From assembly GCA_019695185.1 (NCBI GenBank), contig JAIBAN010000040.1:1-64000 (forward strand): a DNA stretch of 64,000 bases, given 5' to 3'. The notes beneath the pieces were generated by a model. It saw only the letters and a list, made by a program, of their open reading frames with translations, was not told the DNA's origin and ran no database searches. This document shows positions 4,167-61,211 of this stretch, one piece after another. This stretch comes from Blastocatellia bacterium (GTDB lineage Bacteria > Acidobacteriota > Blastocatellia > Chloracidobacteriales > Chloracidobacteriaceae). Numbering within the stretch: the stretch's first letter is position 1; every line of letters starts with the position of its first letter. Both the position numbers and the translations under genes were made by a program.

Positions 4167-4215
4167 TTTTTGAGCGCCTGTCTGGCCAGAAAACAAAAAC
4201 ATTGAAATCTCAACC

Positions 4216-4260
4216 GGCATTTTTCAATCCGAATGGAATCATTCCACATTGAAAAATGCC
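4216..4260 (+). promoter_or_regulatory. Nested inverted repeat in the rapZ leader
   Basis: Arms GGCATTTTTCAAT (4216-4228) and ATTGAAAAATGCC (4248-4260) are perfect 13-bp complements, with an inner GGAAT/ATTCC pair (4235-4245). It ends 30 nt before the rapZ ATG. It could be a terminator remnant of the upstream gene, an operator, or an RNA hairpin in the rapZ leader. Confidence 0.55.
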
Positions 4261-4290
4261 TTGTTTCATTTGCAAAACACCTCACAACCT

Positions 4291-5160
4291 ATGAATCACC
4301 TTCTCATCATCACAGGGCTTAGTGGTTCAGGCAAACATTCGGTCTTCAAAGTGCTGGAAGATATGGGGTATTTCTGCGTTGACAATCTTCCAGTAAAATT
4401 GCTGCCAACCTTTGTGGACTTATGTCAGCGTTCGGGAGAGACACTGGAACACGCCGCAGTGGTGGTGGATGTGCGGGAACCATCCTTTACGGAAACGTTC
4501 CCGGAAATTTTCCGCGCCTTGAAAAACCAGTACTCCCACTTGCAACTGGTTTTTGTCGAAGCCTCGGATGCCGTTTTAACCCGGCGGTTCAGCGAAACCC
4601 GGCGACCTCACCCCATGAGTTCCCGTTCCGGAAAAAAACGAAACTTGCAGGAAGCCATCGGCTCTGAACGGGCGTTGCTTGACCCCATCCGGGAACTGGC
4701 TTCAGTGGTGGTAGATACCTCAGCCCAAACGGTTCACACCTTGCGGCAGTTGCTGGTGGATGTGCTGCATCCGGAAGGCGAGCGCCCCAAGATGCAGGTT
4801 ACGGTTATGAGTTTCGGCTTCAAGCACGGCCTGCCAACAGAATCGGATTTGATTTTTGATGTGCGTTTTCTGGTCAATCCATATTTTGTGCCGGAACTGC
4901 GGGAGCAAACCGGAAAACAAAAACCGGTGGTGGATTTTCTCAAACAGAACGAGGAAGTGCTCGAAACCCAAAAAAGGTTTGAAGACCTGCTGGGTTTTGT
5001 CGTCCCGCGCTATGCCCGCGAAGGTCGCAGCTATTTAACGCTGTGCGTTGGCTGTACCGGTGGGAAGCACCGTTCGGTCATGATGGCCGAAGTTTTAGGG
5101 AAATACATCAAAAAACTGGGATTCCCGGTCCGGGTCAAACATCGGGACATTGAGAAATGA
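4291..5160 (+). CDS. rapZ: RapZ-family nucleotide-binding/RNase adapter protein
   Basis: 289 residues, matching the family (about 285). N-terminal P-loop kinase-like fold with Walker A GLSGSGKHS (residues 9-17) and the family block FCVDNLPVKLLP. The C-terminal domain ends with the diagnostic GCTGGKHRSV. In enterobacteria the protein binds small RNAs and directs RNase E to GlmY/GlmZ, tuning amino-sugar synthesis; in distant phyla only nucleotide and probably RNA or metabolite binding can be assumed. ATG 4291 is chosen over an in-frame TTG at 4249, which lies in a hairpin arm and would add 14 unconserved residues. No ribosome site is obvious. The usual hprK or PTS neighbours are absent. Confidence 0.93.
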   Translation: MNHLLIITGLSGSGKHSVFKVLEDMGYFCVDNLPVKLLPTFVDLCQRSGETLEHAAVVVDVREPSFTETFPEIFRALKNQYSHLQLVFVEASDAVLTRRFSETRRPHPMSSRSGKKRNLQEAIGSERALLDPIRELASVVVDTSAQTVHTLRQLLVDVLHPEGERPKMQVTVMSFGFKHGLPTESDLIFDVRFLVNPYFVPELREQTGKQKPVVDFLKQNEEVLETQKRFEDLLGFVVPRYAREGRSYLTLCVGCTGGKHRSVMMAEVLGKYIKKLGFPVRVKHRDIEK

Positions 5161-5237
5161 GGAACTGAGGACCAATCCAAGGACTGAGGACTGAGGACTG
5201 AGGACTGAGGACTGAAGGCAAAACCAGTTCTCGGTCC
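5161..5237. repeat. Heptamer array GGACTGA with degenerate inverted arm
   Basis: Five exact GGACTGA units at 5181-5215, a decayed one at 5161, and a short degenerate reverse arm at 5225-5237. It begins directly after the rapZ stop and ends 2 bp before the stop of the converging CYTH gene. Confidence 0.9.
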
Positions 5238-23300: not shown

Positions 23301-24032
23301 CTGGCCGAAGCCCATCGTTTGGGCATTATTCACCGTGATATCAAACCCGAAAACATTTACCTGACCCAGACTTCCGAAGGTGAAACCGTCAAAGTGGTGG
23401 ATTTCGGGATTGCCAAAATGCTGGGTGATGAAATCAGCGGCGACCTGGGAAAATTGACCGGCACCGGCAGGCTGGTCGGAACACCGTTTTATATGGCACC
23501 GGAGCGGCTGGAAGGCGGCAGTTATGACGGACGTTCGGATGTCTATAGCCTGGGCATCGTCATGTTTGAAATGCTCTGCGGTCAAAAGCCCTTCCGCTTA
23601 CAGGAAGGCAGCGGGTTGGTCAGCCTCGTATTGGCGCATTTGCAGGAGATTCCGCCTCGTCCCCGCAATCTCAACCCGCAGATTGCTCCCGGCATCGAAT
23701 CGCTCATGCTGCGTGCGCTGGAGAAAGACCCGGCCAAACGTCTGACGGCATCCGAGTTGGGAACTTCCCTGGTGACGGCGCTCGGTTTATTATCTGCTGC
23801 GGTGGCCGATGCCGTGTCCGACGCTATACCCTCTTTGCTCCAGTCGAAAGTGGAGGACCTGCCAACCAGTGACTTGGCTTCTTTCCACATCTCCACGCTT
23901 GAAACCACTGAGATTCGAGTTGAGCGAACCAATCCGCCTGAACGACTGGCCACGCAAATGCAACGTGAAATTCCCAAGACGGAAAACCGGGAGTTACCCA
24001 GCGTGAAAATAGGACTGAGGACTGAGGACTGA
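20316..24032 (+). CDS. Propeller sensor fused to a Ser/Thr protein kinase
   Basis: 1238 residues. Signal sequence (1 to about 36), about 14 two-component-regulator propeller repeats (about 40-680, repeated LWIGT-type strands), a Y_Y_Y Ig-like domain (about 685-757), one membrane helix (about 758-783), a coiled coil (about 784-880), then a complete Hanks kinase (about 880-1150): GAGGFG, AVKVF, HRDIKPEN, DFG and APE all present. Propeller plus Y_Y_Y normally feeds a histidine kinase, as in Bacteroides hybrid sensors; here the output is Ser/Thr phosphorylation. A periplasmic glycan-like ligand is plausible but unproven. The last residues GLRTED and the TGA come from a GGACTGA array, so the original tail has been altered. 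Confidence 0.93.
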   Translation: MGKVVGPARGLVGFFCLAVSLTLAWPLCAWGLDPNKTLTQYVRRVWNTNDGLPVMAIFSLLQQRNGYLWLGTHEGLVRFDGVRVKVFDLTNTPAITNNRITALCETQDGTIWIGCGAEGMFSSARTRGGGLVRYKNGVFSRLDARDGLTDDIIKFMQEDRQGNLWIATSQGALKYENGRFEAVTVAQGLPDNDCTSLAMDQQGGVWIGTQNGLAHWFAKECQIFTTAHGLPDNTVLSLLVDSQNRVWAGTKNGFACFENGQWRSFSQKNGALTGRVSSFLEDRDGNLWIGGYPVGLCRYRQGVFQSYAEKDGISSHVLTAREGREGELWVGTGRGLFQFRDGKFTSVSVEEGLSNQFTYPILEDRSRALWIGTLDGLNRLDHGVLTRFTQADGLAGKSALSLCQTQDGDLWIGSENGISRYSQGKFFQYPPGNGLASGYVRAIFEDTQTGCLWIGVGNGLTRFQNGQFHEVTKADGYQGELVLSVLRDRQGVIWFGNNNGLDCLQNGKFRHFGLADGLPDLSIKLVFEDSKGTLWLSSPSGLHRFVNGKISSVTTRHGLFDTPSSAFEDAQGWLWMGCNKGIFRLRRAELEAVVEGRGSQVACTVFGPADGMKERECNGGRQPAGCATRTGEIWFPTGNGAVRIDPTRLQLNQVVPPVVMEEILLDEQVQPAGEWITVNPGQRNLEVHYSALSFLIPERVLFRYRLEGFDQQWIEAGTRRTAYYSNLPPGEYTLQVRACNDDGLWNEAGATLRLRVIAPWWRRWWAFGLYGVLAGVLILAGIRFQTEALQRRNRLLEEKIRERTSEVTLQRDEIERQKSVLDRQHAELAENMEKLKSAKLDVERKNEALERVNAELIVSQQQADRIFSALAEALPGTVLEGKYRLEEKIGAGGFGVVFQATHLVLNRPIAVKVFKPSPGNDSAEAVERFIREGRSASRLTHPNAIHIFDSGISSEGIAYLVMELLQGRSLADELAMTPILSQRRMVGIVVPVCEALAEAHRLGIIHRDIKPENIYLTQTSEGETVKVVDFGIAKMLGDEISGDLGKLTGTGRLVGTPFYMAPERLEGGSYDGRSDVYSLGIVMFEMLCGQKPFRLQEGSGLVSLVLAHLQEIPPRPRNLNPQIAPGIESLMLRALEKDPAKRLTASELGTSLVTALGLLSAAVADAVSDAIPSLLQSKVEDLPTSDLASFHISTLETTEIRVERTNPPERLATQMQREIPKTENRELPSVKIGLRTED

Positions 24033-24221
24033 GGACTGAGGACTGAGGACTGAGGACTGAGTGAATCATCAAACCAGGCTTCATAGCTAAGTTATTTTTG
24101 AACTTTGCTTTTTTCAGATACGGGATTGGATTTTTACTCAGTCCTCAGTCCTCAGTCCTCAGTCCTGATTTGGTCCTCAGTCCTGATTTGGTCCTCAGTC
24201 CTGATTTGGTCTTCAGTCCTG
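24012..24221. repeat. Inverted GGACTGA pair with an 18-bp higher-order repeat
   Basis: Left arm: seven exact GGACTGA units (24012-24060). Right arm: four TCAGTCC units (24138-24165), then a larger unit, TGATTTGGTCCTCAGTCC, repeated about three times (24166-24221). The left arm holds the stop of the propeller kinase; the right arm ends 12 bp before the SemiSWEET start. Confidence 0.93.
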
Positions 24222-29899: not shown

Positions 29900-29900
29900 A

Positions 29901-30125
29901 GGACTGAGGACTGAGGACTGAGGACTGAGGACTGAGGACCATTCAGGACTGAGGACTGAGGACTGAGGATTGAGGACTGAGGCCGAAAGGATGAGGGAAT
30001 CCCCAAATTCATATCTGAAAAAAGCAAAAGGGTATAACATTTCAGATTTTCCGCTTGATTTGGTTTTCCGCTCAGTCCTCAGTCCTCAGTCCTCAGTCCT
30101 TGTCATGTCCTCAGTCCTCAGTCCT
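29901..30125. repeat. Inverted GGACTGA pair
   Basis: Left arm 29901-29980: two blocks of five units separated by a short degenerate piece. Right arm 30072-30125: about six TCAGTCC units in two blocks. Spacer about 90 bp. The left arm abuts the start codon of the Bmp-type gene; the right arm ends 7 bp from the stop of the inositol-phosphate synthase. Confidence 0.93.
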
Positions 30126-31469: not shown

Positions 31470-31486
31470 GTCTCTCCTTCTTGTAA

Positions 31487-31613
31487 GGACTGAGGGCTGA
31501 GGACTGAGGACTGAGGCTTGAGATTTGAATGACGATTTGCAAATCTGAAACCCAATGTGGATTCCACAGCACAAGCAAAAATCACTCAGTCCTCAGTCCT
31601 CAGTCCTCAGTCC
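31487..31613. repeat. Inverted GGACTGA pair
   Basis: Left arm 31487-31521 (five units, two diverged), spacer about 65 bp, right arm 31586-31613 (four exact TCAGTCC). It sits between the hydrolase stop and the ribosome site of the synthase gene. Confidence 0.93.
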
Positions 31614-31630
31614 TCTTCTTCCCCAGACGC

Positions 31631-35799: not shown

Positions 35800-37476
35800 T
35801 TATCGTTTATGCAGGATGGCGGTCATGGCTTCTGGCTCCAATGACCGGTTGGCATAATCGAGTGCGGTTTCACCTGCCGAGTCTGTGGCTTGAACCCTGG
35901 CCCCGTGAGCCAAAAGGTAAGCCGCGATTTCCTTTTCACCATTGCGGGCTGCATACATGAGTGAGGTTTCGCCTGCTTCATTGGCCGTGTTGACCTGTTC
36001 ACCTTTTTCCACCAGCATTTTCACAATTTCAGGCGAGCCTTTGACTACAGCCCGGATGAGCAATGTGTAGCCAGCCTTGACCGGTTCGTTGACCTGGGCC
36101 CAGTGCGCCAGCAGGAGCCTGACCATGTCCACGTTTTTGTGGGCAATCGCCAGACCGAGCGGAGTTGTATCCGCGCTTTCCACTTCAGGATTCGGAGAAA
36201 CCTGCATTTCCAACAGGAACTGCACCACCGGCAGGTTCTCCTGGTCAACTGCCCGCAGCAGGGTTTCATAGCCGCACAACCGGACATCGGCTCCTTTGGC
36301 AATCAGTTGCCGCAGCAGAAGCAGGGAACTTTCCCCGTCCTGGGATACGGCATAATACAGGGGAGATTTTCCTTTTTGATTGACGGCGTTGGGGTTGGCA
36401 CCTCGTTCGAGCAGCAGATTGACAATCGAACCGGCATCCGTGGCCCGCGATTGTTCGGCCAGGAGGAGCGCCGTTTGGAACTCGCGGTCCGTGAGATTGA
36501 CGTTGGCTCCTTGTTCGCACAGCAGATTCACCAGTTCAAAATCGCCGTTTTCGGCGGCATACATCAAGGCGGTTCGGCCCAGCCAGTCGGCTGTATTTGG
36601 GTTGGCTCCCTGTTGCAGCAACAACCGGCAGAGTTCAATGGTTTTGTGTGGTTCGTTTCCTCCTTTGGAACGGGCTGCCAGCACAAGCGGGGTGAACTTG
36701 AAATCATCCTGTGCGTTGACGTTGGCCTTGGCCCGGACGAGCATTTCCGCTGTGTGGAGATGGTTCAAATCAGCGGCAATCAGCAGGGGTGTCCGACCAT
36801 CTTTGTTTTTGACTTCCAGACTTGCCCCGGCTTCGAGCAGGGCCTGAAGGGATTGTGCCCGGCCCCGCTCGGCAGCCGCCAAAATCGCGGCGGGCTGATT
36901 GGGTGAAGTTCCCAACCGCAGGGCCATGCGGACACAATCCGGATTGTCAATGGTTTGGACCAGTGACGGGAGCAGGGTGATGCCATAAAGGAGAATCCCA
37001 CAACCCAGGCTCACCAGCAGGGTAAACAGAACAGTGGCAATGCTGCTCAATCCGTGCAACGTCCGTTCACCGGTTTGCGGGGAAGCCTGATTGAGCCGCC
37101 ACACAACCAGTGCCATGGTTCCGGCCCAAAACACAAAAGCCCATTGGAAATGGGGGAATGTCATGAGCATGGCAAACGGAACCAGCACCACATTGAGCAA
37201 CCCAAGGCCAACCAACAGCGGCAAGGTCGGGTGAACCCGTTCCAACCGGGTAAAGAGGGTGCGAAATTCATCCAACGCGGCAAACGGACTTACCGGCTCG
37301 GCCAACGCGGCAAACCGAGGCGCGGAAACGGTTGCCCCGGCCTGTCGGGTGGCCTGTTGGACCAGGGCGGTGACATCATTGCAACGCGAACAGGTATTGC
37401 TGGCGGGGTCAAAACAGTCGGTTTGATGACAGATTTCACAACGAATGGGCAGTGATTCGGCTTTAATCTGAATCAT
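35800..37476 (-). CDS. Ankyrin-repeat membrane protein with N-terminal zinc ribbon
   Basis: 558 residues. CxxC pairs at Cys13/Cys16 and Cys29/Cys32 form a likely zinc ribbon; two or three membrane helices follow (about 95-140 and 155-185); residues about 200-558 are about ten ankyrin repeats (GRTPLLIAAD, GRTALMYAAENG, GETSLMYAARNG). The repeats bind a protein partner; on which side of the membrane is not certain, although a cytoplasmic zinc ribbon would put the repeats in the periplasm if the helix number is odd. AGGAGG 6 nt before the ATG at 37476 makes the start firm. Divergent from the aminotransferase gene. Confidence 0.88.
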   Translation of the reverse strand: MIQIKAESLPIRCEICHQTDCFDPASNTCSRCNDVTALVQQATRQAGATVSAPRFAALAEPVSPFAALDEFRTLFTRLERVHPTLPLLVGLGLLNVVLVPFAMLMTFPHFQWAFVFWAGTMALVVWRLNQASPQTGERTLHGLSSIATVLFTLLVSLGCGILLYGITLLPSLVQTIDNPDCVRMALRLGTSPNQPAAILAAAERGRAQSLQALLEAGASLEVKNKDGRTPLLIAADLNHLHTAEMLVRAKANVNAQDDFKFTPLVLAARSKGGNEPHKTIELCRLLLQQGANPNTADWLGRTALMYAAENGDFELVNLLCEQGANVNLTDREFQTALLLAEQSRATDAGSIVNLLLERGANPNAVNQKGKSPLYYAVSQDGESSLLLLRQLIAKGADVRLCGYETLLRAVDQENLPVVQFLLEMQVSPNPEVESADTTPLGLAIAHKNVDMVRLLLAHWAQVNEPVKAGYTLLIRAVVKGSPEIVKMLVEKGEQVNTANEAGETSLMYAARNGEKEIAAYLLAHGARVQATDSAGETALDYANRSLEPEAMTAILHKR

Positions 37477-37569
37477 GCGGAGCCTCCTGCGGAACGTGCT
37501 TGCGGATGGCGGTGACAACAAGCCGGGAAAATTGTTGAAGACCGAATTTACTTCTTTTGGGCAGACCAT

Positions 37570-37717
37570 TATACTCGCCGTCTCAATCCACCGAACAATT
37601 TTTTTCAATCCGAATTGCCAGGGGCAGCGGCTTTGGCCCTTGTTCCGTCAAGCGGAAATTTCCAGTCTGCGAAAGAAGTCAGCACCACTTGCTCAAGCGA
37701 GTGGGGCTTTGTTTTTT
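37570..37717 (+). ncRNA. Candidate structured small RNA or hisC-like leader
   Basis: A TATACT box (37570-37575) could start a transcript near 37582. Within it are AGGGGC/GCCCTT pairing, a TTCCG/CGGAA hairpin (37643-37657) and a final terminator stem. No coding frame or ribosome site is seen. It ends about 140 bp before the aminotransferase start, so it could be a free small RNA or a leader with attenuation. Confidence 0.45.
37683..37717 (+). terminator. Strong intrinsic terminator
   Basis: CCACTTGCT (37685-37693), loop CA, AGCGAGTGG (37696-37704) with one G-T mismatch, extended by AGC/GCT, then GTTTTTT to 37717. No plus-strand coding gene precedes it. Confidence 0.75.
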
Positions 37718-47637: not shown

Positions 47638-47651
47638 AGCTCAAGTGCTGA

Positions 47652-47730
47652 GGACTGAGGACTGAGGACTGAGTTAGATTCCAGATTGTGCTGGTTTTTA
47701 TCTCGGTCCTCAGTCCTCAGTCCTCAGTCC
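47652..47730. repeat. Inverted GGACTGA pair
   Basis: Left arm three GGACTGA (47652-47672), right arm four TCAGTCC-type units (47703-47730), spacer 30 bp, the shortest here. The stop of the ketopantoate-reductase gene is inside the right arm. Confidence 0.93.
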
Positions 47731-48738
47731 TTTGTGGGCAACCAGAGATTTGAGTGCCGGTAATTGAAAACGCCCAGGGCCGCTTTTTTCCTGCACGCAC
47801 TGGTGAACACTTTCCAGCAGGGTTGAATTGTAAGGAGTCGGGATACCCAGTTGTTGACCCAGCTTCACAATTTCCCCGTTGAGAAAATCCACTTCGGTAA
47901 CGGTTCGCCCCAGCCGCAAATCCTGATAGGTGGAAGGGTAAGACCGTTCCTCCTCAGGAATTTCCTGGTTGGTTCCGGGCCGATGGGCAGAAATCATCCG
48001 GTCAATTTGCTGACGCACATCATAGGTTCCGGTGGGGTCGGAAAAATCAATTCCGGCAGCCTCGGCAACCTGCATCCCTTCGGCGGATACCTGCCGCATA
48101 AATTCGACGTTTTCCGGCAGGCTCAGGGCCTTTTGCAGCCACAATCCCTGCAAGGCAAGCGTCGCGTTGTTGATATTGGACAACAGCTTGCCCCACTTGA
48201 GGTTCATCACCTGGGCGTGCTCCACCGAACGAAATCCAATCAGCCGGGCATCGGCGGTGAGTTTTGCGGTGATTGCATCCGTTCCCTGGGGATACAGACC
48301 AAAGACAACCTGGTCCATGATGGTGCGGCGAACCCGTCCGGGGCCGAGGTAATTTCCATTGAAATTGACCAGGGCCGAATACACCGTCTGAAACCGTTCT
48401 GCCAGCCAAGACTCGTTCCGGACTCCGTTTTGAAAGGAGACAATCGGCGTTTTGGAGGGAAACCAGTTTCCCAGCGTTTCAATGGCTTCAGCGGTTTGGG
48501 GTGATTTCACCGCCAACAGGATGACATCGCCCGGCAGGGGGGAAATGGCAGTCACATCGTCCGTTGCCGGAACCGGAAGCGTCAGGGTTTCCCCAATCCG
48601 TTCCAAAATCAAACCATGTTGCCGGATGGCCTGCACATGGTCGGTTCTGCCAATCAAAACCACGGATTTGCCAGCGTAATGGAGCAGCCCTCCGTAGCAA
48701 CTGCCGACTGCACCGGCACCATAAATTATGTAGCGCAT
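47710..48738 (-). CDS. panE: 2-dehydropantoate 2-reductase (ketopantoate reductase)
   Basis: 342 residues. N-terminal NADP-binding YGAGAVGS, mid catalytic Lys region NLKWGKLLSNINNA, and C-terminal helical domain with a conserved Glu in GTVTEVDFLNGE-type context (here RTVTEVDFLNGEI). It reduces 2-dehydropantoate to pantoate for coenzyme A. No other pantothenate gene is near. The end (KGLRTED and stop) is read from the TCAGTCC arm, so the original C-terminus was altered. No ribosome site before the ATG at 48738; a GGGTTCA array starts 16 bp upstream. Confidence 0.92.
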   Translation of the reverse strand: MRYIIYGAGAVGSCYGGLLHYAGKSVVLIGRTDHVQAIRQHGLILERIGETLTLPVPATDDVTAISPLPGDVILLAVKSPQTAEAIETLGNWFPSKTPIVSFQNGVRNESWLAERFQTVYSALVNFNGNYLGPGRVRRTIMDQVVFGLYPQGTDAITAKLTADARLIGFRSVEHAQVMNLKWGKLLSNINNATLALQGLWLQKALSLPENVEFMRQVSAEGMQVAEAAGIDFSDPTGTYDVRQQIDRMISAHRPGTNQEIPEEERSYPSTYQDLRLGRTVTEVDFLNGEIVKLGQQLGIPTPYNSTLLESVHQCVQEKSGPGRFQLPALKSLVAHKGLRTED

Positions 48739-56257: not shown

Positions 56258-57961
56258 ATGCGACTGCAATCTTTGTGCGCGGTGGTGTTGACTGCCGCAC
56301 TTTCAGGCGGAACCATTTCCGGTCAGGTACCGCAACCGGCCTCCAAAACCACCGCCATCGCGGCTTTCAAAAACGGACTTGGCTTTTTTGTGAAACAGGG
56401 GCGGGCAACCGTGCAGGACGGCTGGGCGCTGACAACGCCCTTGCCGAGTGCAACGCTGGGTACGCTCTGGCTTTCAACGACGGAACCGGGTACCGCAATT
56501 GAAGAGGTCATCGCCACCCAAAAGACCCAAGCCTCACCTCGTCCCGTGTCATCCGTGGCGGGGTTGTTGGCCGCCAACGCCGGTCAAACGATTACCATTC
56601 AGGTGGGAGACAAATCCATTACCGGCGAACTGTTTGCTTTCCCCACCGAAAAACCAAACCCAGACCCGATTCCTTTTGACCGAACCGGGGAAACCATGTA
56701 CCCCACGCCATACCTGACGGTTGTGCCGGGGACAACCGTCAGTCCGGCTCCGGTCTATCCGGATATGTTAATGCTGAAAGTCAACGGAGCCCTGACCGCC
56801 TTTCACATGGGCGAAATCAAATCGTTCACCTTTCCGCAAAATCCCAAAATGTCGCTGGATGTGTTTGAAACCACCAAACATCTGAAATTCAAAGTCAAAG
56901 GGGCCAAGGATTCGGTCGGAACCGTGACGGCCTATCTGCAAAAGGGATTTGGCTGGACGCCTTCGTATCTGGTGGCGCTCAAGGACGAAAAGACCGCAAC
57001 CATCACCATGCAGGCGGTGCTCGTCAATGACGTGGAGGATGTGGTTGACGGTGAAGTGTCGTTTGTCGTGGGCTATCCGAATTTTGCCTTTTCCAACGTG
57101 CCTTCGCCCATGAGCGGCAGGCAGTCGCTGGCGCAGTTTTTGCAATTGCTCCAGCAAAGTCGGTCATCCGGCAGTCTGGATGCCCTGTCAAATGCCGTCA
57201 TCACCCAACAGGCCATGTCGTACCGCAACACGAGCGAGGTAACGGACGGCTCCGGATTCAACACGACGGCTTCGGATATGAGCGGAACCAGTGAAGAGGA
57301 CCTGTTCCTCTACAAACGCGAACACGTCATGCTCAAGCGCGGCGAACGTGCCACCTACCCGGTTTTTTCCGGAACGGTTGGCTATGAGCATATTTATACC
57401 TGGGACATTCCTGACACGTCGCGGGTGGATATTTACGGACAGTCACGGGGTTCCTATGACCGGACCGGGATGGATAATCCGGGCGACAAAGTCTGGCATT
57501 CGGTCCGGCTCAAAAATGCGACCGATGTTCCCTGGACGACCGCCCCGGCACTGGTCCTGACGGGCGAAAAACCGCTGGCGCAGGACACCCTGGGTTACAC
57601 GCCCAAAGGCGCGACCACGGATGTCAAATTGACGGTGGCAACGGATGTCCGGGTGGATAAAAACGAACTGGAAATCGAACGCCAGCCGGATATCAAACGA
57701 TGGGCAGGCCGGGTCTATGACAGTGTGACGGTGGAAGGAACGCTCAAGGTGAAAAATTACAAATCCCGCCCCGTTACCCTGTGCGTTCAGAAATTGCTGG
57801 TGGGGGAAGTGGGTCTGGTTGCCGAGAAAGGCACGGCGGAACGCCTGGCAGTTTCAATTCAATCGGTCAACCCAACCTCCCGCATCAAGTGGGAACTGCC
57901 TTTGGCTGCCGGAGAGGAAAAAACGGTGACCTACAAATACAAGGTTTTTGTGGCCCATTGA
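56258..57961 (+). CDS. Exported DUF4139-like protein
   Basis: 567 residues. Signal peptide (1-22), then a beta-rich protein in which GWTPSYLVAL and VLVNDVEDVVDGEVSFVVGYPN match the DUF4139/mucoidy-inhibitor-like core; a late GEEKTVTYKYKVFV closes the domain. No catalytic pattern is seen. AAAGGAAACC lies upstream of the ATG. Probably a periplasmic or surface beta-structured protein of unknown role. Divergent from ligA and preceded by a palindromic element. Confidence 0.75.
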   Translation: MRLQSLCAVVLTAALSGGTISGQVPQPASKTTAIAAFKNGLGFFVKQGRATVQDGWALTTPLPSATLGTLWLSTTEPGTAIEEVIATQKTQASPRPVSSVAGLLAANAGQTITIQVGDKSITGELFAFPTEKPNPDPIPFDRTGETMYPTPYLTVVPGTTVSPAPVYPDMLMLKVNGALTAFHMGEIKSFTFPQNPKMSLDVFETTKHLKFKVKGAKDSVGTVTAYLQKGFGWTPSYLVALKDEKTATITMQAVLVNDVEDVVDGEVSFVVGYPNFAFSNVPSPMSGRQSLAQFLQLLQQSRSSGSLDALSNAVITQQAMSYRNTSEVTDGSGFNTTASDMSGTSEEDLFLYKREHVMLKRGERATYPVFSGTVGYEHIYTWDIPDTSRVDIYGQSRGSYDRTGMDNPGDKVWHSVRLKNATDVPWTTAPALVLTGEKPLAQDTLGYTPKGATTDVKLTVATDVRVDKNELEIERQPDIKRWAGRVYDSVTVEGTLKVKNYKSRPVTLCVQKLLVGEVGLVAEKGTAERLAVSIQSVNPTSRIKWELPLAAGEEKTVTYKYKVFVAH

Positions 57962-57976: not shown

Positions 57977-58109
57977 TTTGGAGTGCGGCGACTTGTCGCC
58001 GCTTTGGTTGATGGCGACTTGTCGCCATCACTTGGGAAAAAGCACAAAAAGCAGAATTCTGCCGCCTTGTCGCTGAAACACGAAGCGGCAACAATCGAGG
58101 CACTCCAAA
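57977..58109. repeat. Inverted element with GGCGACTTGTCGCC cores
   Basis: Ends TTTGGAGTGC (57977-57986) and GCACTCCAAA (58100-58109) are exact complements. Inside are two copies of the palindrome GGCGACTTGTCGCC (57987-58000, 58013-58026) and a third, decayed one near 58061. Between converging genes. Confidence 0.9.
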
Positions 58110-58180: not shown

Positions 58181-58819
58181 TTACTGAATCCATTTCCTTA
58201 AATCATTGGCAAGGGAGCCAAAACCGTTGGGAAAATTCTGTTCCAGAATGGAGATGTCCTGAGCCAGTCGGGTCGCTTCCCGAATTGCAATTTTGGTTTC
58301 AAAGGGAAGGGAAGGGCGGTCGGTTCCGTAAACCAAATGTTTTAGCTGCTTGCGATTGTATGGCTTTTGTTTTTTGTCTTTGGCATTAAACCAAGCTGTT
58401 TCAGTTTTGTTCATACCATCCTTTGTATTGCATAGGTACCACGCTTCGACTGCGGGAATGGCAAGCCCGACCGCAAAATTGAATGGAATTTGATTGTAGC
58501 GCAGGTTAAGCCGTTCCTTGATTTCCTGGAGGTTTTCCCGAACCTGACATAAGCGACAGTCGTCATCTTTTTGAAGGGGATGTTCAGGCAAGTGCATGGA
58601 AGTATCGTCAGAATCCACAACGAAAATCAGCCCACATGCTTCTGTCGAGTAATAAAGTTTTCGAGTTACGACTTCAACTTGGTTAAGAACAGCAGAAACA
58701 CCTCGCCCGTCGCGCAGTCGAACCGGTTCAACCTCAATTTCAACTTCCAGCACGGCTTCGGCCAGGATTTTAACGGCAGCTTCGTCAGCAGGTGATTCGC
58801 TCAAAATTCCGATTCTCAT
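58181..58819 (-). CDS. TOPRIM-like nuclease partner (DUF4276-type), probable defence gene
   Basis: 212 residues. Starts RIGILSESPADEAAV, in the position of the TOPRIM glutamate (EGxxD/E), followed by LIFVVDSDDTS (the DxD) and AVGLAIPAVEAWYL, a pattern of the DUF4276/DUF4435 TOPRIM relatives. These are expected to cut nucleic acid when triggered by an ATPase. Its ATG overlaps the stop of the upstream ATPase gene by 4 bp (ATGA), so the two are one unit. The exact family cannot be fixed by eye. No signal peptide; cytoplasmic. Confidence 0.75.
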   Translation of the reverse strand: MRIGILSESPADEAAVKILAEAVLEVEIEVEPVRLRDGRGVSAVLNQVEVVTRKLYYSTEACGLIFVVDSDDTSMHLPEHPLQKDDDCRLCQVRENLQEIKERLNLRYNQIPFNFAVGLAIPAVEAWYLCNTKDGMNKTETAWFNAKDKKQKPYNRKQLKHLVYGTDRPSLPFETKIAIREATRLAQDISILEQNFPNGFGSLANDLRKWIQ

Positions 58820-59838
58820 GGCGTTGCCGGGACACCTCCCAACACACCGGAGTACCAAGCTTCACCTAGCGGGGCATCGCCTAAGATCTCGTCAACGTCC
58901 ATCCGGTCGGTAAGGCGGGAAAACGTTGCTTCAATTCCATGCTTTTCAGCAATCACGATTTCTTCGGGATGGTCTTTGAATAAGTCGAGAAAATAGGGTG
59001 AATGGGTAGTCACTACAACTTGAATAGGCTTTCGTGATTCGCCAACTAATTCAGGATAGCTCAAGCGGTAAAGGGCGTCTTGCACTTCACGCAACATGCG
59101 GGGATGGATGGCACGTTCGGGCTCCTCAATACCAATTACAGGAGGTTGATCAGGTAAGTAGGCTAATGCGACTAAACCAAAAGTTAAAAGAGTTCCTTCA
59201 GAGAGCAATTTGAACGGAATTGTAAATTTTCCTTCCCGCGTTCGCATTGAAATTGAGCGGACCCCAGTTGCTTCTGTATCAAAAGAAATTCGATCAAACT
59301 CTGGATAGATTCGACACATTTCGGCTTGAAATGCTTCAAATCTATCCTCATGGCGATTCCGTAAGTTGTCTAAAACAGTTGGCAAACCAAATCCGTCTTC
59401 TGCCAAAGATTGAACCTTGTCAATGGGTGTCGGTACCGCAAGTTGGCTTGAAACAAATGAAAATACTCTGGTTGCTTCAAAAAATAATCTTACAAGGCGT
59501 CTTTGTGGATCATGTTTATCCAGAGGAGGGAAGGAGTAGATTGAACTAATCCCTTGAGGTTTGCCCAAACGCTCAAAATAAATAAAGTCATCCACCCACT
59601 TTTCAGGGATAAACTCTGGGTTGTCTAAATAATATTTTATCGAAATATCTTCTGCTGAAGGGAGCCCAATTGATTTATCATCGGCATACTTCATATCCAT
59701 TACTGTCTTCCATTGCAGAGCCCTCAAAGCCGTACTCTTACCACTTCCATTCGGACCAACAAGTAATGTAAAACGCCCTAATGGCAGTTCTGTATCCCGC
59801 AGACATTTGTAATTTTTGAATTCAATCGAAGTAAGCAT
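58816..59838 (-). CDS. AAA ATPase (OLD/RecF/SMC-like), probable defence gene
   Basis: 340 residues. Walker A GPNGSGKST (28-36), an ABC-like signature LLSEGTLLTFGL, Walker B VIGIEEPERAIHP and the switch His in VTTHSPYF all present, as in AAA_15/AAA_21 ATPases of abortive-infection systems. The gene is visibly more AT-rich than its neighbours, especially in its first half (59200-59830), suggesting transfer. It forms an ATGA-overlapping pair with a TOPRIM-like gene, as in OLD, PARIS and AbiL-type systems, where the ATPase senses phage and the partner acts. ATG 59838 is chosen; no strong ribosome site is seen. The trigger is unknown. Confidence 0.88.
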   Translation of the reverse strand: MLTSIEFKNYKCLRDTELPLGRFTLLVGPNGSGKSTALRALQWKTVMDMKYADDKSIGLPSAEDISIKYYLDNPEFIPEKWVDDFIYFERLGKPQGISSIYSFPPLDKHDPQRRLVRLFFEATRVFSFVSSQLAVPTPIDKVQSLAEDGFGLPTVLDNLRNRHEDRFEAFQAEMCRIYPEFDRISFDTEATGVRSISMRTREGKFTIPFKLLSEGTLLTFGLVALAYLPDQPPVIGIEEPERAIHPRMLREVQDALYRLSYPELVGESRKPIQVVVTTHSPYFLDLFKDHPEEIVIAEKHGIEATFSRLTDRMDVDEILGDAPLGEAWYSGVLGGVPATP

Positions 59839-60251: not shown

Positions 60252-60279
60252 TCAGTCCTCAGTCCTCAGTCCTCAGTCC
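60252..60279 (-). repeat. TCAGTCC heptamer array, single arm
   Basis: Four exact TCAGTCC units ending 5 bp before the malate-dehydrogenase stop. No GGACTGA partner is present within 300 bp, an unpaired member of the family. Confidence 0.92.
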
Positions 60280-60284
60280 TGGCT

Positions 60285-61211
60285 TTAGAGTTTCAGCAAA
60301 TCAACCAGTTCCTGCACGGCATTGGCCGATTTCTGGAGCGCGGCGCGTTCTTCTTCGAGCAGGTTGATTTCGATAATCTGTTCCACGCCGTTGGAGCCAA
60401 GTTTGACCGGCACGCCGATGAACAGGCCGTGGTAGCCGTATTCGCCTTCGAGCAGGGCAGCGCAGGGCAGAATTTTCTTCTTGTCCTTGAGAATCGCTTC
60501 AATCATTTCAACCGTGGCCGAGGCCGGAGCATACCAGGCTGAGGTGTTGAGCAGTTTGACCACTTCGGCACCGCCGTTGCGGGTCCGGTTGTTGATGGCT
60601 TCGATGGTTTCCGCCGGCAGCAGGTCCGGAATCGGAATCCCGGCGCAGGTCGAATAGCGTGGCAGGGGCACCATGGTGTCGCCGTGTCCGCCCAGCACAA
60701 AGGCGGTCACGTTTTCGACCGACACATTGAGGGCTTCGGCGAGGAAAAACCGCATCCGGGCCGAATCCAGCACGCCGGCCATTCCCATCACGCGGTTGCG
60801 CGGGAAACCGGAAACTTTATGAGCCACGGTACACATGGCATCCAGCGGATTCGACACGATGATGAGAATCGCGTTCGGTGAATATTTGGCAACCTGTTCG
60901 GTCACATCGCGGACGATTTTTTTGTTGACTTCAACCAGGTCGTCGCGGCTCATGCCGGGCTGGCGCGGTTTGCCCGACGTAATCACAACGATGTCGGAAT
61001 CTGCGGAATCGGCATAGGTGGTGGCTCCCGTCAGATGGGCGTCGTAGCCTTCGACCGGGGCCATTTCATTCATGTCGAGGGCTTTGCCCTGGGGCAGCCC
61101 TTCGATGATGTCAACCAACACGACATCGGCCAATTCTTTCAACGCAACCAATTCGGCGACCGTCGCGCCGACGTTTCCGGCTCCGACGACCGTAACTTTT
61201 TTACGACCCAT
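60285..61211 (-). CDS. mdh: Malate dehydrogenase (LDH-like)
   Basis: 308 residues. NAD loop [10 protein letters not shown] at the N-terminus, substrate Arg in KPRQPGMSR, Asn in VSNPLDAM, and catalytic His in [19 protein letters not shown] with Arg after the Pro/Lys marks malate rather than lactate specificity. It interconverts malate and oxaloacetate in the TCA cycle. AAGGAC lies 12 nt before the ATG, somewhat far. Flanked by a heptamer arm at the end and by a GTTTGGG pair before the start. Confidence 0.95.

Follow-up and report, generated by a model that had tools for sequence, protein, structure and literature searches.

Results and Discussion

A two-gene locus on the minus strand

The window, by which we mean the whole stretch of 64,000 nucleotides analysed in this study, contains two overlapping genes on its minus strand: one at 58816..59838, which encodes a 340-residue ABC ATPase of the OLD/Rad50/PtuA type (AAA_21/AAA_15), and the other at 58181..58819, which encodes a 212-residue, TOPRIM-like putative nuclease (hereafter, the partner) that is distant from DUF4276/HEC-01B and starts with MRIGILSESPADEAA. 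An AAA ATPase with ABC-like motifs and a 212-residue partner overlapping by ATGA had been proposed in an earlier, sequence-only reading of this DNA; both open reading frames were indeed confirmed, and the motifs GPNGSGKS, SEGT, VIGIEEP, and TTHS were found in the ATPase. The ATGA at 58816..58819, also on the minus strand, holds the stop codon of the ATPase gene together with the ATG of the partner gene, and such an arrangement suggests that translation of the two genes may be coupled.

Upstream of the pair and on the same strand, a malate/lactate dehydrogenase gene is located at 60285-61211. On the side of the partner, a DUF4139-like gene (56258-57961) runs convergently with the pair, and beyond it are a DNA ligase gene and then that of a sortilin/BNR-repeat protein. 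Just past the partner gene, furthermore, the palindrome GGCGACTTGTCGCC appears twice, 26 nt apart, at 57987-58026, and a third, imperfect copy is present at 58061 (chance expectation, 0.01 at one mismatch or fewer).

The ATPase

The Walker A motif GPNGSGKS (residues 28-35, 59734..59757), the ABC signature SEGT (residues 213-216, 59191..59202), and the Walker B acidic pair E238-E239 (59122..59127) are all encoded on the minus strand, as are the other segments described below. Across 72 aligned ATPases, G28, G33, K34, G215, and E238 were invariant, and S213 and E239 were kept in at least 90%; this alignment (A4) leaves out locus L071, in which the ATPase is broken, and loci L007, L010, L022, L035, L051, L056, and L060, which have no full ATPase reading. 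The C-terminal tail, LGEAWYSGVLGGVP (residues 324-337, 58828..58869), follows a consensus of LGxxWxSGxxGGxP with positions that are invariant or nearly so in the 72 proteins, among which L324, W328, G331, G334, G335, and P337 are strictly invariant. The least conserved stretch of the alignment is instead found at residues 51-110, and the segment 75-102 inside it (59533..59616), where the model has a pLDDT below 50, is a candidate sensor region.

The sequence matched AAA_21 (8.9e-26) and AAA_15 in Pfam, and the PADLOC families were ranked with HEC-01A (6.6e-35) at the top of 133, followed by MAD3, AriA, AbiLi, and Old. The predicted model, with a pLDDT of 88.5, was superposed on retron/Septu PtuA, SMC/Rad50 heads, and TsOLD chains with VIA Z scores of 17-20, and a Foldseek search gave E values of 2e-12 to 1e-10 for chains of the PtuA/retron, SMC/Rad50, and TsOLD types. 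The ATPase of the pair is hence an OLD/Rad50-type ABC ATPase.

The partner

Among 81 aligned partner proteins, E8, D12, and E13 of the ESPADE motif (residues 8-13, 58781..58798, minus strand) and E125 in PAxEAW (58445..58447, minus strand) were present in all 81, but the relatives had been gathered with two search patterns holding ESPADE and EAW, and conservation at these motifs is thus partly selected. D69, H76, H80, C88, C91, and K160 lie outside both patterns, and their conservation owes nothing to the selection. Indeed, D69 of the DxD motif (residues 69-71, 58607..58615, minus strand), H76, C88, and C91 of the HxxxH...CRxC element (residues 76-91, 58547..58594, minus strand), and K160 (58340..58342, minus strand) were found in 81 of the 81 proteins, and H80 in 76. 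R89 was invariant as well, and D71 was kept in 75, with Asn in the other six.

According to two studies, active-site residues of OLD nucleases include the metal ligands E377/D381, D431/D433, and E480 in Thermus scotoductus OLD as well as K562 in Burkholderia pseudomallei OLD (PMC7049728 and PMC6755086). Because the acidic residues agree in order and spacing, E8/D12, D69/D71, E125, and K160 of the partner may correspond to these residues, with E8/D12 as proposed metal ligands, E125 as a proposed ligand of the second metal, and K160 as the proposed catalytic lysine. The sequence-only reading had noted SESPADE in place of EGxxE; the sequence is correct, but this is not a motif that has been lost: the acidic residues E8 and D12 are spaced i, i+4, just as in OLD TOPRIM domains, where E377/D381 of T. 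scotoductus OLD are an example (PMC7049728). Position 123, where OLD proteins have Ser/Thr of the second-metal S/T-x-E, is less supportive of kinship with OLD, being Ala in 75 of the 81 proteins and Ser in four. The HxxxH...CRxC element directly follows the DxD motif and is, judging from its residues, probably zinc-binding.

The partner was modelled with confidence (pLDDT of 93.9). In the VIA comparison, the top match was 2p62, an uncharacterised archaeal protein (Z 7.4), followed by the OLD TOPRIM domains 6nk8 (Z 7.0, 152 residues, rmsd 4.3) and 6p74 (Z 6.9, 127 residues, rmsd 3.9), and unrelated Rossmann-like folds scored Z 6.1 and lower. Foldseek found no match in the PDB at E of 0.001 or below, and a sequence search of the PDB with the partner family gave no convincing match. 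A TOPRIM fold of the partner has, therefore, moderate support from the model; the possibility raised earlier that structure prediction would reveal no such fold was not borne out, yet the OLD TOPRIM domains were matched only moderately (Z of about 7), which also weakens the assignment to OLD enzymes.

Relation to named systems

The closest named system is HEC-01, a PADLOC candidate made of HEC-01A and HEC-01B, with HEC-01A as the best match of the ATPase. We take HEC-01B to be DUF4276. For the partner, the likeness is uncertain: the window's protein reached HEC-01B at only E 0.024, 42 of the 81 family members reached one HEC-01B model at E of 1 or below (best, 1.6e-5), and the H/C element was not seen in any of 24 aligned DUF4276 proteins. 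DUF4276 (PF14103) itself scored 13.9 bits (E 0.064) on the window's partner against a gathering cut-off of 30.2 bits, so membership was rejected, and it matched one of the 81 members at E of 1 or below. When the profile of the partner family was compared with the 24 DUF4276 proteins in hhalign, the probability was 18% over 60 columns. From these weak scores, the partner is at most a distant relative of DUF4276/HEC-01B; no family in NCBIfam matched it.

PARIS (AriA/AriB), a class 4 OLD system characterised by cleavage of tRNA after an anti-restriction trigger, also has its ATPase and TOPRIM proteins on separate, adjacent genes, and a review (PMC10568477) describes class 4 as two domains on separate genes and expects more such systems. 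The window's ATPase resembles AriA (3.8e-26), which nonetheless ranks behind HEC-01A, but its partner had no match to AriB at E of 1 or below, nor was AriB among the 12 families matched by the 81-member alignment, and membership in PARIS was rejected. Structures of AriA/AriB were absent from the matches listed for the two predicted models, which bears neither for nor against this. In the same way, the ATPase resembles AbiLi (2.7e-21) and the partner has no match to AbiLii at E of 1 or below, so AbiL was rejected. MADS was rejected too: the ATPase resembles MAD3 (9.3e-33) and 10 of the 81 partners reached mad4 at E of 1 or below, but the ATPase scored 114 bits against a MAD3 cut-off of 420 (NF047739), and no MADS gene was found among the scanned window proteins. 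The earlier view that the pair does not clearly belong to any named system is supported.

OLD proteins of classes 1 and 2 (TsOLD and GajA) share the type of ABC ATPase with the pair (6p74, Z 18.1; phmmer, 1.3e-14) and have a TOPRIM active-site set comparable to that of the partner. Unlike those proteins, the pair is encoded by two genes instead of one, has a small partner with the extra H/C element, and comes without a UvrD-type helicase gene. According to PMC12796447, furthermore, the wider OLD family includes an archaeal member with a role in the cell cycle, namely Cran1, a class 5 OLD protein of Sulfolobales, which is conserved in its lineage in a fixed neighbourhood with no evident role in defence. 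Going by this description, Cran1 resembles the pair as an OLD-type enzyme that a lineage retains in one genomic setting, but it is archaeal and a single-gene fusion of ATPase and TOPRIM.

Searches of the literature for DUF4276, for HEC-01 with PADLOC, and for Toprim in Opitutaceae gave nothing, and an earlier description of the pair in a review of ABC-ATPase conflict systems is possible; for MADS, nothing relevant to the pair was among the matches listed. One paper on the Hma-embedded theme names HECs, with HEC-01 absent from the passages covered.

Pairing in relatives

A scan of public genomes gave 110 relatives of the partner, and the best 80 of the 110 were analysed, many from metagenome-assembled genomes (MAGs) and some from likely duplicate contigs of equal length (L003 and L020; L004 and L041). 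The ATPase gene lies directly upstream of the partner gene in 79 of these 80, and the near-obligate pairing is not due to chance, given that so many relatives share the arrangement. In the 79 pairs, the genes overlap by 4 nt, as in the window, in 47 and by 1 nt in five, and are separated by gaps of 1-266 nt in 27. The one exception, L008, has an intact partner (4208-4849) with no ATPase within 4.2 kb upstream and was excluded from the pair counts; this locus is from a MAG and could reflect a misjoin. In L071, also from a MAG, a broken ATPase is next to an intact partner.

Composition and occurrence outside Verrucomicrobiota

The sequence-only reading had described the first half of the ATPase gene as AT-rich and consistent with transfer. 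Indeed, GC content is 40.0% in the 5' half of the ATPase gene and 44.6% in the pair against 54.1% in the window, and no 1,658-bp stretch of the window, sampled in 100-bp steps, is lower in GC than the pair itself. The pair is also AT-richer than its flanks in all nine Acidobacteriota, all seven Planctomycetota, and the one Bipolaricaulota loci, and the differences between pair and flank in two loci with no assigned phylum were +0.012 and -0.034. The occurrence is patchy: the partner was found in four of 396 genomes of the window's phylum, with the window's own genome counted, and two genomes of this phylum carry broken relatives, one with an internal stop and the other with both genes interrupted. 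In the sister-genus genome G051, the pair was not found, and both flanking gene blocks were present there on separate contigs. Composition and patchy occurrence thus agree as signs compatible with transfer, and the composition together with the absence from the sister genus speaks for a recent acquisition of the pair in the window's genome. In the tree, and again in keeping with transfer, Acidobacteriota and Planctomycetota are intermixed on long branches, and the window's protein joins one of Pyrinomonadaceae in what was flagged as a possibly false join; its placement is unsure because of the long branches and the thin sampling outside Opitutaceae.

Ten proteins of the window were scanned, and none clearly indicated a defence locus, with some PADLOC matches being read as generic domains. 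Likewise, 18 loci outside Verrucomicrobiota contributed 120 neighbouring proteins, which were mostly housekeeping ones with no clear defence island. A defence-island setting was rejected: strong matches to PD-T4-6, mad6, C3a189, and MkoA and those to RTasHel and GajB were read as generic kinases and UvrD helicase, a reading backed by Pfam matches and made on a PADLOC list covering 25 of 60 families. By tblastn, furthermore, neither 72,556 plasmids nor 50,697 phages yielded a copy, and two pattern scans of IMG/VR hit no relative. A phage or plasmid home was hence rejected, although Acidobacteriota and Verrucomicrobiota are probably under-represented in the collections searched. Elsewhere in the window, an open reading frame at 35800-37608 (minus strand) matched PADLOC PDC-M72A (2.1e-51) as well as an ankyrin model.

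A possible mechanism

We consider, with a probability of roughly 0.55, that the pair is a split OLD-type nuclease gated by its ATPase, which arrived recently in the window's genome and most likely serves there in abortive or restrictive phage defence. The ATPase would dimerise in the manner of OLD/Rad50-type proteins, and binding or hydrolysis of ATP would hold or release the small, TOPRIM-like metal nuclease, which would be produced from the overlapping gene by translational coupling; the variable segment of the ATPase would then be the likely sensor. Upon a trigger, the partner might cut nucleic acid, one metal being held by E8/D69/D71 and the second by D12/E125; K160 would sit close to the scissile phosphate, and a structural or substrate-binding zinc site would be formed by the HxxxH...CRxC element. 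The housekeeping neighbours, the lack of plasmid, phage, or viral copies in the collections searched, and the near-core status in Opitutaceae described below argue against phage defence. Defence nonetheless appears the likeliest use of the window's copy.

Retention in Opitutaceae and alternative roles

Anti-phage behaviour of the whole family is not supported. In Opitutaceae, 163 of 252 genomes have the partner, nearly all of them as a single copy; in the same set of 252, DUF4276 was found in 16 (10 above the cut-off) and RecA in 239 (224 above the cut-off). A wider sample of Verrucomicrobiota gave the partner in 28 of 387 genomes, all of them within the Opitutaceae set and none outside it, and the 61 Verrucomicrobiota rows in the tree fall on one side of a branch (98/98). 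The pair has native GC content here, with differences from the flanks of at least -0.015 in 60 of 60 loci and a mean of +0.019. A gene that we read as an acyltransferase/AMP ligase is downstream of the pair in 49 of 57 Verrucomicrobiota loci, counting those that extend 2 kb or further on that side, but in none of seven Acidobacteriota, seven Planctomycetota, one Bipolaricaulota, and one unassigned loci. Close homologues in an unvarying housekeeping context had been named in the sequence-only reading as evidence against an anti-phage role, and this is largely the situation in Opitutaceae. In 16 close pairs, the dN/dS of the partner was below 1 throughout, as under purifying selection, namely 0.03-0.25 in 15 pairs of Opitutaceae and 0.31 in one of Acidobacteriota; one value for the ATPase was not computable. 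Also, distances of the partner, the ATPase, and the neighbouring gene were correlated in 37 loci (r of 0.56-0.66, with 0.57 for the partner and the neighbour). The high frequency, the fixed neighbour, the low dN/dS, and the correlated distances therefore point to long vertical retention in Opitutaceae, with the active site under selection.

It is thus conceivable, if somewhat doubtful, that the pair has a cellular job such as genome maintenance, RNA processing, or cell-cycle control, and that copies found beyond Opitutaceae are housekeeping genes spread by transfer. Such a role is favoured by all of the above, namely the frequency between those of DUF4276 and RecA, the kept neighbourhood, the native GC content, the dN/dS values, and the distances tracking those of the neighbouring gene, and Cran1 would be its precedent (PMC12796447). 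About a third of Opitutaceae, however, are without the pair, and these absences come in blocks (67 runs against a shuffled mean of 116, on the assumption that the genome order in the set tracks kinship); the partner has no match beyond the Opitutaceae set in the Verrucomicrobiota sample, and the pair is patchy, AT-rich, and sometimes broken elsewhere. Furthermore, divergence is faster in the ATPase than in the nuclease (mean distance of 0.44 vs 0.32), a pattern that a sensor exposed to changing pressure would be expected to show.

A toxin-antitoxin system, in which the TOPRIM-like protein is the toxin, the ATPase neutralises it, and the two are kept through addiction, is improbable. It would fit a small two-gene operon with an overlap and the description of AAA_21 in Pfam as a putative AbiEii toxin domain (type IV toxin-antitoxin), but the partner is intact with no ATPase in L008 and with a broken one in L071, albeit both in MAGs, and the invariant motifs of the ATPase as well as the long co-inheritance in Opitutaceae exceed what addiction needs. 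Still less credible is a partner acting as a metal-binding subunit of TOPRIM-like or Rossmann-like fold with no nuclease activity; the moderate fold scores, closely trailed by other alpha/beta folds, would allow it, but the full acidic set and the lysine, invariant in 81 of 81 proteins except for D71 (75), are hard to explain without catalysis.

Our best reading of the pair is a new clade of split OLD-type, ATPase-gated nucleases that is stably retained in Opitutaceae. The earlier proposal of an anti-phage candidate stands as to the pair of an ABC ATPase and a TOPRIM-like protein; as the family shows two behaviours, however, its defence reading is only partly supported, and the pair, being stable and common in one bacterial family, is possibly more than a phage-defence device. 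The Opitutaceae copies may have either a cellular or a permanent immune role, both of which fit the present data. More tentatively, and at less than even odds, the pair might found a class of its own among split OLD enzymes, distinguished by a TOPRIM nuclease that binds zinc; this class would have passed from a mobile pool of defence genes into the ancestor of Opitutaceae, where it became fixed as near-core genes for a cellular or permanent immune role, and would remain transferable elsewhere.

Pairs of an ATPase and a TOPRIM protein are commonly assigned to phage defence from their domains only. The family described here offers a natural comparison, in which one and the same pair, its active site apparently intact, has a foreign look and a patchy occurrence in some phyla but looks native and near-core in one family, and whether such nucleases can be converted to a permanent cellular task is a testable question in culturable Opitutaceae. 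A probable zinc-containing branch would also be added to the TOPRIM nucleases.

A second ATPase pair and a tandem heptamer

Of 58 genomes from the window's class, 23 have DUF4276. The window's genome itself has a second ATPase pair (G000:C185:38194-40214, locus L131), the partner of which passes the DUF4276 cut-off. Between genes of the window, furthermore, the heptamer TCAGTCC is repeated in tandem at 5180-5216, 24011-24167, 29900-30125, 31486-31615, 47648-47731, and 60252-60281, and the same tandem heptamer is present in L131 and in a stretch of a sister genome (L157).
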